A DNA stretch of 64,000 nucleotides from Marinomonas lutimaris. GTDB taxonomy: Bacteria; Pseudomonadota; Gammaproteobacteria; Pseudomonadales; Marinomonadaceae. The notes below the pieces were generated by a model. The model was not told the DNA's origin. It made no database searches and saw only the letters and a list, made by a program, of their open reading frames with translations. The position numbers and the translations under genes were made by a program. The stretch is taken from the NCBI RefSeq assembly GCF_019426345.1, contig NZ_JAHLLW010000006.1, forward strand, positions 62,001 through 126,000. Reading direction: 5' to 3'. Of the stretch, positions 51,718-54,670 are shown piece by piece; positions within the stretch are counted from its first letter, which is position 1, and each line of letters opens with the position of its first letter.

Positions 51718-52437
51718 TTACTTCATTTTCTTTTCCATCGAAGTCAACATACCTCTTAACATGCCCACTTCTTGCTGATCCAATCGCGAACGCTGAAACA
51801 AACGACGAAAACGTGTCATCACTTGCATTGGCATTTCAGGATCAAGAAACTCAGTCTGTACTAAGACTTTTTCCAAATGCTCAAGCAAGTAATCGATCTG
51901 CTCAACATTGGCCGCTGGCACATCCCATTTACTCGCAACCACTGGCGCATCTTTCATCAATAGAGTCTTCATGCGTAACTCATAGGCAATAACCTGTACT
52001 GCCGCACCCAAATTCAAGGAACTAAAGGTCTCAACAGAAGGAATATGCACATGATAATTACAGCGTTGTAGCTCTTCGTTGGTGAGTCCTCTGTCTTCAC
52101 GACCAAACACAAATGCCGTCACCAAGCCTTCATCAAACACCAAGTCTGCTGCTTGCCTTGGATCTACCAAAGGCCAAGGAATATTACGTTCACGAGCACT
52201 GGTGCCGATGACTAGCTGACAATCAGCCAAGGCTTCTTCTAAAGTATCTACAACAACGGCATTATCTAAAATATCCATCGCACCAGAAGCGCGACTCACC
52301 GCTTCATCACTAGGATATTGCTTAGGTGCAACAAGATACAGATCTGCTAGCCCCATATTTTTCATTGCACGAGCAGCACCACCAATATTTCCAGGGTGCG
52401 ATGTATTAACAAGGACAATTCTTACTTTATTTTGCAT
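51718..52437 (-). CDS. trmJ: tRNA (cytidine/uridine-32-2'-O)-methyltransferase
   Basis: SPOUT-fold enzyme methylating nucleotide 32 of the tRNA anticodon loop. 239 aa from the ATG at 52437 (MQNKVRIVLVNTSHPGNIG); five extra codons from a TTG are less likely. Trefoil-knot motifs: VFGREDRGLTNEELQRC near 107 and SLNLGAAVQVIAYELR near 140. Divergent from suhB, the usual neighbour of trmJ in gammaproteobacteria. Confidence 0.94.
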   Translation of the reverse strand: MQNKVRIVLVNTSHPGNIGGAARAMKNMGLADLYLVAPKQYPSDEAVSRASGAMDILDNAVVVDTLEEALADCQLVIGTSARERNIPWPLVDPRQAADLVFDEGLVTAFVFGREDRGLTNEELQRCNYHVHIPSVETFSSLNLGAAVQVIAYELRMKTLLMKDAPVVASKWDVPAANVEQIDYLLEHLEKVLVQTEFLDPEMPMQVMTRFRRLFQRSRLDQQEVGMLRGMLTSMEKKMK

Positions 52438-52735
52438 TTTATGAGGTACCAATAATAGCCGTCGGACAATGGCGCGTATCTTAACAGATATTTATCATAA
52501 AGCCGCAAGCCGATCAGTTTTTAACCAAAACTTCACTAGCAAAAAGCGCACTGTTACGATAGAATTCGCGCTCTTATTTAGGCACTCGGTTCTATTGTGC
52601 TCTTTGCTTAAGGTACTTACCTTTGCGAAGGCAATTGATAAAACGGAGAAGCCCGCTCTTTAACACTTTATTTGGCAACTTATCGTCTTATAGACGGTAT
52701 ATGCATTTTAATGACGGAATAATTGACGGTAAATT

Positions 52736-53524
52736 ATGCAACCTAGAATCAATGTCGCACTTAAAGCAGCTCGTGCCGCTGCAGAATATATTGTTCACTC
52801 GCAAGAAAAATTGCTTTTTGATAAAGAACAAGGTCAGTCCGCTGAACAAGTTTATCAAGCTGTTTGCTCTGGCGCAGAACGCAGCATTGTTTACCACCTA
52901 GAAAAAGCCTACCCAGCTGACACCATCACAACTCGCCTTCAAGGCACAGTTCAAAATGGCGAAGAAGGCGAATGGATCATTGATGCAATCCAAGGACAGC
53001 ACTTATTTTCACGTGGCCTAACGGGCAACGTTATTACTATGAGCTACCTAGTTGCCGGTAAAGTGGAGCACGCTCTTGTGCTAAACCCTCACACCAAAGA
53101 CGAGTTTTACGCTAGTAAAGGTCGTGGTGCCTACCTGAACAACTCTCGAATCCGTAGCAGCTCTGCACGTACATTAGAAAACGTGACTGTCGCAGCACAA
53201 TTCCCTGCAACTGATCGCTTGATGCCTTACCTATCTGGACAATTCGCTGTGCTCACTGAAATTGCAGAGCAAGGCGCTCGTGCTGTTATGCAAGACTGCC
53301 CAGCATTGATGCTTGCTAACGTTGCAGCTGGTCGTCTTGATGCAGCTTGGGGCATTAAACTTCAAGAATGGGAAATGCAAGCGCCGCTATTCATTGCAAA
53401 AGAAGCTGGTTGTTTATTCGCTGGTTTTGATGGCTCACCAAGCCTAGAAAAAGGCGATGTACTTTGCGCAGCACCACGTTTGTTTAAAGTATTGCTGCCA
53501 ACTCTAAACAAACACCTAAACTAA
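52736..53524 (+). CDS. suhB: SuhB homologue with degenerate inositol-phosphatase active site
   Basis: 262 aa, full length for SuhB and in the usual place beside trmJ. The fold-level sequence is kept (INVALKAARAAAEYIV, SKGRGAYLNN, VAAGRLDAAWGIKLQEW), but metal ligands of E. coli SuhB are replaced: Asp44 by Cys44, the Glu67-Glu68 pair by Arg67-Leu68, DPLDGT by DAIQGQ (83-88, second Asp to Gln), and WD by WE at 212-213. Only one of the core Asp residues remains. Phosphatase activity is therefore unlikely. E. coli SuhB also binds NusA and acts in rRNA antitermination without needing catalysis; that role may be what is kept. Confidence 0.88.
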   Translation: MQPRINVALKAARAAAEYIVHSQEKLLFDKEQGQSAEQVYQAVCSGAERSIVYHLEKAYPADTITTRLQGTVQNGEEGEWIIDAIQGQHLFSRGLTGNVITMSYLVAGKVEHALVLNPHTKDEFYASKGRGAYLNNSRIRSSSARTLENVTVAAQFPATDRLMPYLSGQFAVLTEIAEQGARAVMQDCPALMLANVAAGRLDAAWGIKLQEWEMQAPLFIAKEAGCLFAGFDGSPSLEKGDVLCAAPRLFKVLLPTLNKHLN

Positions 53525-53552: not shown

Positions 53553-53590
53553 AAAAAGGCTCTTTTCAGCGATGAAAAGAGCCTTTTTTT
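53553..53590 (+). terminator. Intrinsic terminator after suhB
   Basis: AAAAAGGCTCTTTTC, six-base loop, GAAAAGAGCCTTTTT, followed by more T. Confidence 0.92.
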
Positions 53591-53608: not shown

Positions 53609-54670
53609 TTAATGCTTATGATGACCATGTTCATGATGATGGTGATGTAAATCCTCTTCATCATGGTGATGGTGGTGGTCACTAGAGCCATCTTCACCCG
53701 GATAGAACAAACCTATATCTTGACGAATCTCATCTAACGTTGCTATCAGCTCTAAACTGTTCTGCCAGCTATGATTAGGACTTTGAATCAAACCTTCTTC
53801 AAGGCAGCGGTTCACTTCATCTACCTCAAACTGGTAGCCATTTCCGGGGAAATCAAACTCCACAGCGCGCTCTTTATTATCAGCGCTAACAACACGGCAG
53901 GATTTGGCTTTGAACCATTCTGAATCGATTTCAATATAACCTTTAGAACCAGATAACATGGCACGGTTCGGATTACACGAGATCAAAGACGCATCCAAAG
54001 AAGCAAGCTGTCCACTTTCCCAACCTAATAGAATTTGCTCGAACAGATCCACTTCCGTGTCGCCAATCACCGCTTGGTTCTGAACAAAGTCCGGCTTACC
54101 GAAAAACAATTGTGCTAAGAACACCGGATAAATCCCTACATCCAATAAAGCGCCGCCGCCAAGCTCAAGATTCATCAAACGATGATTAGGATCTGTAGGC
54201 CCAACAAAATTGAAACTTGCCTGAATGCTGTTCAGGTCGCCAATTTCACCTTCTTCAACCCACTCTACAACTTGCTCTATAACAGGATTAAAACGCGTCC
54301 ACATGGCTTCCATGACAAACACGTTATGCTCTAACGCTAAATCGTAAAGCTCCTTAGATTGCACCTCATTGATAGTGAAAGGCTTTTCACACAATACAGC
54401 CTTACCCGCCAAAATACAGGCTTTGGTAAGATCGTAATGAAATACATGAGGTGTCGCTATATAGATAACATCCACTTCATGACTATTAATCAGTGAAAAG
54501 TAATCAATAAAGGCCAATTCGATATCAAATTCGGCCGCAAATGCATCCGCTGATGCCTTATCACGAGAAGCAACCGCACGAAGTTCGCCCGCTTTGACAT
54601 GACAAAAATCACTGGCAAATAAATGCGCGATTTGACCTGTACCAATAATACCCCAGCGTACCTTCTTCAT
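53609..54670 (-). CDS. Gfo/Idh/MocA-family oxidoreductase with His-rich tail
   Basis: 353 aa. N-terminal NAD(P) Rossmann domain (VRWGIIGTGQIAHLFASDF), conserved VYIATPHVFHYDLTKACILAGKAVLCEKPF with the EKP motif near 97, and a C-terminal alpha/beta domain with GGGALLDVGIYPVF near 172, all close to the trans-dihydrodiol dehydrogenase subgroup. The last 25 residues are unusual: two runs of five His plus four more His among Asp/Glu/Gly, like the tails of metallochaperones. Ribosome binding site GGGGAG. Substrate unknown. Confidence 0.88.
   Translation of the reverse strand: MKKVRWGIIGTGQIAHLFASDFCHVKAGELRAVASRDKASADAFAAEFDIELAFIDYFSLINSHEVDVIYIATPHVFHYDLTKACILAGKAVLCEKPFTINEVQSKELYDLALEHNVFVMEAMWTRFNPVIEQVVEWVEEGEIGDLNSIQASFNFVGPTDPNHRLMNLELGGGALLDVGIYPVFLAQLFFGKPDFVQNQAVIGDTEVDLFEQILLGWESGQLASLDASLISCNPNRAMLSGSKGYIEIDSEWFKAKSCRVVSADNKERAVEFDFPGNGYQFEVDEVNRCLEEGLIQSPNHSWQNSLELIATLDEIRQDIGLFYPGEDGSSDHHHHHDEEDLHHHHHEHGHHKH

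Follow-up and report, generated by a model that had tools for sequence, protein, structure and literature searches.

The suhB gene of the window (a 64,000-nucleotide stretch of the Marinomonas lutimaris genome) very probably encodes a pseudo-phosphatase that has been kept as a Nus factor, and this is the best explanation of the data presented here. Judged by its sequence, the protein should be without phosphate ester hydrolysis because nearly all of the Mg2+-binding and water-activating residues are gone. By analogy with E. coli SuhB, it most likely binds NusA and most likely plays a similar role in rRNA synthesis, and we infer that this role is the essential one.

The suhB locus and its altered active site

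The features of the locus are given below.

51718 to 52452, minus strand: trmJ, a divergent gene used as the marker of the suhB locus
52655 to 52665, plus strand: boxA GCTCTTTAACA, a putative NusB/E site located 81 bp upstream of the suhB start (consensus match)
52681 to 52699, plus strand: hairpin in the interval between boxA and the suhB start, with an 8 bp stem and a 3 nt loop (stem search)
52736 to 53524, plus strand: suhB orthologue, predicted to be catalytically dead (262 aa, ATG start)
53553 to 53588, no strand assigned: hairpin with a T-run in the interval between suhB and a convergent oxidoreductase-like gene, called as a minus-strand terminator by consensus match only

The head-to-head order of trmJ and suhB is identical in the window and in E. 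coli K-12, and trmJ adjoins SuhB in 95 of the 97 loci scanned, including all 79 with a dead site. The match to Pfam PF00459 spanned the whole protein and scored 83 bits, less than the 152-224 bits of five other PF00459 proteins in the same genome. Its score against NCBIfam NF008027 was 122.3 bits and did not reach the curated cut-off of 332 bits, which is a poor test in this order as it was exceeded in only 7 of the 194 order genomes; the best NF008027 match had E <= 1e-75 in 131 of the 194. When solved structures were ranked by sequence with phmmer, the Nus factor SuhB of P. aeruginosa came first (E 1.1e-43, the nearest solved sequence relative) and E. coli SuhB second. An AlphaFold2 model built on a 54-row alignment had a mean pLDDT of 94.5 and a pTM of 0.91, and P. 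aeruginosa SuhB structures were among its top Foldseek matches. Its top structural matches were a tie between E. coli SuhB 2qfl (Z 36.2, 257 residues, 2.3 A) and P. aeruginosa SuhB 8wip (Z 35.8). The gene is a true SuhB orthologue despite its low PF00459 score, because it and trmJ are arranged head to head, the solved structures nearest in sequence are SuhB proteins and its model matches SuhB. The sequence-only reading had placed a full-length gene at the trmJ-linked suhB locus, and this was confirmed by the locus, the length of 262 aa and the full-length PF00459 match.

Downstream, the convergent neighbour (53609-54670, minus strand) resembles by eye an oxidoreductase of the Gfo/Idh/MocA type. 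Its C-terminal tail is very rich in His and acidic residues and is possibly metal-binding. The terminator scan that called the hairpin between the two genes gave 2 terminator-like sites compared to a shuffle mean of 1.3.

In a MAFFT alignment, E. coli residues D44, E67, E68, D87, T89, and D212 were replaced by C, R, L, Q, Q, and E, respectively, and P85 by A, while D84 and W211 were retained. In its own numbering, the window protein carries C44, R67, L68, D83, Q86, Q88, W212, and E213 as the counterparts of D44, E67, E68, D84, D87, T89, W211, and D212 (E. coli numbering is used from here on). We take the roles of these residues, as metal ligands or as the Asp/Thr pair, to be those of the human enzyme and of E. 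coli SuhB. The phmmer alignments paired the same site residues and were gapless around D44, E67/E68, the DPxDGT motif, and the W-D pair, so misalignment was ruled out. Both methods therefore bear out the earlier claim that Asp44, Glu67/Glu68, the second Asp of DPxDGT, and the Asp after Trp212 are changed, and the change of T89 is an addition to that list.

One full-length suhB orthologue, without stop codons and 68-100% identical, was found in 47 of the 48 genomes of the genus; the sole genome lacking it is 77% complete. All 47 orthologues have changed states at D44, E67, E68, D87, T89, and D212, and D84 is present in every one of them, so that 1/7 of the catalytic set (D44, E67, E68, D84, D87, T89, D212) is retained throughout. 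The position of P85 is occupied by A in 44 and by T in 3. The changes, whose fixation the sequence-only reading had proposed checking, are fixed across the genus. A sequencing error or pseudogene was ruled out by the agreement of 47/47 species and the lack of stops, and chance by the contrast between 47/47 changed sites and the intact sites of all 12 order outgroups in the MAFFT alignment.

A further difference was seen at position 184, where the 12 order outgroups have R and the genus members M, L, I, S, or T; it is also variable in other dead families. R184 is discussed for the E. coli SuhB dimer in one study (PMC6614801).

Paralogs, Nus partners, and the boxA region

The sequence-only reading had also suggested looking for an intact IMPase elsewhere in the genome. 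Five other PF00459 proteins are present, all with 7/7 catalytic residues, none with K/R at 248 or 251, and none with trmJ within 1.5 kb flanks, each having been scored as a matched stretch rather than as a whole protein. One of the five passed the CysQ cut-off and none passed the IMPase or HisN model cut-off. In three further members of the genus (G035, G037, and G042; 96-99% complete), the sole other PF00459 match was CysQ (244-257 bits, cut-off 228.8), and the search detected no further homologue of inositol monophosphatase; all three keep the dead SuhB.

The possibility of a second intact SuhB elsewhere was rejected: no NF008027 match in the 47 dead-family genomes surpassed E 7.6e-68, while E <= 1e-75 was reached in 131 of the 147 other genomes (a hand tally, for which part of the 47 SuhB genes were read). 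The 16 exceptions among the 147 were seven genomes of f15, two of f39/g78, G058, G098, G206, G227, and three without a match (families are labelled by code, f1 being that of the window's genus).

According to published work, changing K251 and L254 of E. coli SuhB jointly raised the Kd for NusA AR2 from 94 nM to 141 uM (PMC6614801). The window SuhB retains both of these residues, which are just two of the SuhB-NusA contacts, and the adjacent R248. Among 79 dead rows, K/R was found at 248 in 79 and at 251 in 79, and L/I/V/M at 254 in 78. K/R251 was present in 20 of the 23 complete-site SuhB rows and absent from 3. The 24 complete-site PF00459 paralogs, five from the window's genome and 19 from a 22-genome set, had K/R248 in 1 case and K/R251 in 3. 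The intact-SuhB and paralog groups were formed partly from the site and from trmJ, and the 23/23 complete sites are no test in themselves. As far as residues can tell, catalysis and the NusA dock dissociate in both directions, because dead rows keep the dock residues and complete-site paralogs are mostly without them; position 251 is an imperfect marker.

The partners of SuhB are in place. A NusA match reaching through AR2 was found in 50/50 genomes searched (split over two contigs in one), and AR2 identity to E. coli had a median of 55% in dead-SuhB genomes (n = 25) and 57% in intact ones (n = 15). NusB scored above its cut-off in 27/27 dead-SuhB genomes. Both proteins, NusA with its AR2, are encoded in the window's own genome.

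The boxA consensus GYTCTTTAANA is common upstream of suhB, and the Nus complex represses E. coli suhB through a 5' boxA, as stated in an earlier report (PMC5725501). We found the consensus upstream of suhB in 47/47 members of the genus, where it is the longest nearly invariant block of an otherwise very variable trmJ-suhB interval. It was also found in 5/5 members of f36 and 2/5 of f38. It was not found upstream of suhB in f37 (0/6), f20 (0/3), f6 (0/7), f7 (0/2), the dead members of f44 (0/4), or the intact members of the order (0/18). When up to one mismatch to the 11-mer was allowed, it was seen in 6/7 members of f6 and, among the named loci listed, in 4/21 with part-lost sites and 0/59 with intact ones. 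As a line of evidence, boxA is strong in just two groups, the window's genus and f36. In the window's genome the 11-mer, which also arises by chance, has 11 occurrences compared to 4 for the reversed control, and several of these lie inside long ORFs. Two stand 393 and 846 nt past a 16S 3' motif, at the position expected of the 16S-23S spacer (judged from the 16S gene). The dead suhB of this genus thus keeps the signature of a Nus factor that is itself under Nus control, and in several other dead families this signature is missing.

The 11-mer was also observed 71 bp upstream of the first nusB start in the window's genome (L289, G000:C3:12626-12636, minus strand; nusB identified by TIGR01951), such that suhB and nusB are both preceded by boxA in one genome. 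It precedes a like ORF in G039 (L312); in G019 there was no boxA hit before the nusB-like ORF among the 10 loci read. The boxA study states that its authors found no species in which two or more Nus genes are preceded by boxA (PMC5725501).

Between boxA and the suhB start, a stem scoring at least 9 and beginning 12-24 nt after boxA occurred in 20 of the 47 genus members, compared to 70 of 2350 shuffles. There are 36 distinct best stems among the 47: the sequence varies and the pairing is kept. RNAalifold reported no structure for the unadjusted alignment of the 5' region, perhaps since stems of different length are out of register, and whole-region folding energies were mostly ordinary (z from 0.0 to -2.5 for 12 sequences). 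As the stems differ in sequence yet pair, these data suggest selection on the structure. The hairpin is perhaps part of the boxA-mediated repression.

It could be speculated that rRNA transcription is not the main task of the dead protein, which would instead partner and regulate an active paralog of the IMPase family or sense a metabolite. SuhB forms dimers (PMC6614801), and many members of the genus have several PF00459 matches, including the five complete-site proteins of the window's genome. This is nevertheless unlikely, as the three genus members described above have CysQ alone beside their dead SuhB, and as the NusA-contact residues and, within the genus, boxA have been conserved.

Distribution, selection, and history of the loss

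SuhB profile scores are two-peaked across the order. SuhB-like genes were read in a set of 45 genomes, mostly chosen for weak SuhB scores, and in a set of 22 chosen likewise. The trmJ-linked SuhB was dead in 75/75 rows from seven families, since every row read outside the genus was dead in f6 (7), f7 (2), f20 (3), f36 (5), f37 (6), and f38 (5). In f44, 4 of 5 rows were dead; the 79 dead rows comprise 47 from the genus and 32 others. The loss reaches further than the sequence-only reading had envisaged. They keep 0 to 2 of the 7 catalytic residues, in a pattern that differs by family: T89 is kept in 0/79, D44 only in the four f44 rows, and D87 only in f7, f37, and 4/5 of f38. The loss of T89 is common to all dead rows and that of D44 to the seven families, which suggests that the water-activating pair was lost first and that the metal ligands then eroded family by family while the NusA dock was kept.

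Could the protein still be an enzyme, with a metal site reassembled from different residues and a remnant of phosphatase activity? D84 persists in 47/47 genus members, and D87 or D212 is retained in some of the dead families. On the other hand, the residues kept vary from family to family with a maximum of 2/7, and not one row has T89. Moreover, 14 positions are conserved at 95% or more in intact SuhB rows and at <45% in the dead families; six of these are catalytic and three more lie within 4 residues of D212. We regard residual catalysis as very improbable.

Constraint on the dead gene was assessed from dN/dS, as the sequence-only reading had proposed. The median for suhB in the genus was 0.040 (from the 198 of 1081 pairs whose dS was usable) and the value for trmJ 0.021 (40 of 1081 pairs). 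Given this value of 0.040, the dead suhB of the genus is under strong purifying selection. In f36 (0.30) and f6 (0.25), dN/dS of the dead gene was higher than that of intact SuhB (0.125), and in these two families constraint is weaker or change is faster than in intact SuhB. All values are Nei-Gojobori estimates with dS windows of 0.1-1.2 for the genus, outside of which most of its pairs fall, and 0.1-2.5 for the others. Simple decay of suhB into a pseudogene, to which the raised dN/dS of some dead families might point, is the least credible reading of all, as it is contradicted by the value of 0.04 in the genus, the lack of stops in 47/47 members, the full-length gene in each dead family read, the sharing of the loss across family-level splits, and the confident AlphaFold2 model (pLDDT 94.5).

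Part-lost sites were also found on named contigs. The best 80 loci listed comprised 21 with part-lost and 59 with intact sites; these loci were fetched with patterns taken from the dead rows, and 21/80 is not a frequency. Among the matches listed, the part-lost sites belong to Amphritea balenae, Neptuniibacter, Neptunomonas qingdaonensis, Marinobacterium arenosum, Nitrincola schmidtii, Pontibacterium granulatum, Oceanobacter kriegii, Balneatrix alpica, and Pokkaliibacter plantistimulans, among others; 19 of these 21 loci are assigned to the NCBI order Oceanospirillales and the other two have no order, while the 59 intact loci are mostly from Pseudomonadaceae (29) and Halieaceae (22). Identical SuhB stretches match f7 to an Oceanospirillaceae-labelled MAG and f37 to Balneatrix alpica and Nitrincola schmidtii.

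A species tree was built from NusA, InfB, RbfA, TruB, RpsO, and Pnp (41 rows, 2520 columns, LG+G4). The 22 rows of f1, f6, f7, f20, f36, f37, and f38 formed one clade with an SH-aLRT of 97; this clade includes the window's genus and several Oceanospirillales genera. Three dead f44 rows fell outside it, beside an intact f44 member. A single loss for all dead rows was rejected when the 25 rows were held together (p-AU 0.004). Under a mixture model with 31 of the 41 rows (10 dropped), support for the seven families was 79 and f36 was loosely placed, hence the loss near the root of the seven families was one event or possibly two.

Additional dead suhB genes linked to trmJ were found in f39/g78 (2 rows), f69, and f188, while an f39 genome of another genus is intact. 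K/R248 is absent from these rows (0/2, 0/1, and 0/1, respectively), as is K/R251 from that of f69, in regions where the alignment is loose. A dead row of f105 (L264 in G477, 1/7 site residues kept) has no trmJ in the flanks read and was set apart from both the intact-SuhB and the paralog groups. These four families are outside the species tree. The named gammaproteobacterial MAG AS21ysBPME_211 (L247) keeps 3/6 site residues. L247 and L264, which lie outside the main clade, are possible further independent losses, represented by one genome each.

A weak SuhB is unusual in the class, because in a class-wide sample an NF008027 match with E <= 1e-15 was found in 147 of 151 genomes and most were far stronger. 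In five small genomes of f15 (G061, G102, G134, G161, and G209), IMPase-family proteins are present and intact; the flanks read contain no trmJ, and K/R does not occupy both contact positions. The search detected no SuhB-like gene beside trmJ in these genomes, from which SuhB may have been lost. The f15 MAG G339 (L073) has an intact trmJ-linked SuhB.

Taken together, we consider it probable that SuhB has been converted repeatedly from a bifunctional enzyme and transcription factor into a dedicated, enzyme-dead Nus factor, near the root of the seven families (once, possibly twice), in f44, and in a few other gammaproteobacterial lineages, and that it has long been selected for rRNA transcription alone across a large group.

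Proposed role and comparison with known SuhB proteins

As a Nus factor, the dead SuhB would dock on NusA AR2 through its C-terminal helix (K251 and L254) and would stabilise NusB/NusE on boxA RNA within the elongation complex responsible for pre-rRNA synthesis and folding. Since the suhB mRNA carries boxA, the Nus complex probably represses suhB as it does in E. coli. The sequence-only reading held that a dead SuhB points to the NusA/rRNA role as the selected one, and this idea gains support from the fixation of the changes, a dN/dS of about 0.04, paralogs lacking the dock, the presence of NusA with AR2 and of NusB, and boxA. The most economical account is that the enzyme activity is dispensable in these lineages and that the protein was retained as a Nus factor.

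Until now, the basis for considering the phosphatase irrelevant to the rRNA role of SuhB was E. coli mutants, and in a search of the open-access literature no title or abstract start among the papers listed reported a natural, catalytically dead SuhB. The present data offer natural evidence from many species that the lasting job of SuhB is rRNA transcription rather than inositol chemistry. They also indicate that the two roles of this moonlighting protein can be separated by comparison alone, as the site decays while the dock and the fold, and in the genus boxA, stay. Natural catalysis-free SuhB proteins become available for structural work on the antitermination complex. In addition, a group of genes labelled by models as inositol monophosphatase is, to judge from the residues, almost certainly nothing of the kind.

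E. coli SuhB (b2533; 2qfl, 6ib8, 6tqn) is like the window protein in its trmJ locus, length, fold, R248, K251, and L254, and 5' boxA; the window model aligned with 2qfl at Z 36.2 and with the SuhB chain of the rrn antitermination complex 6tqn at Z 34.3. In contrast, E. coli SuhB is an active IMPase with a complete set of seven catalytic residues. Its boxA is at -28 compared to -81 in the window, where a hairpin follows boxA. P. aeruginosa SuhB (8wip, 8wdq, 9j90), one entry of which is titled with inositol-1-phosphate bound, likewise has catalytic residues that are absent from the window SuhB in the phmmer alignment. CysQ and the other PF00459 phosphatases of the same genome share the fold family and differ from the window SuhB in their 7/7 sites, the lack of K/R at 248 or 251, and the lack of trmJ.

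A parallel is offered by IMPase-defective E. coli suhB mutants, to which the cold-sensitive defect is reportedly not tied (PMC4807359). In these mutants catalysis is gone, as is predicted for the window SuhB, and they are described there as being without the null growth defect. The mutants are a laboratory product, whereas the window case is natural, affects a whole clade and involves most of the site. Our observations are an extension of the mutant finding from the laboratory to a natural and recurrent state.
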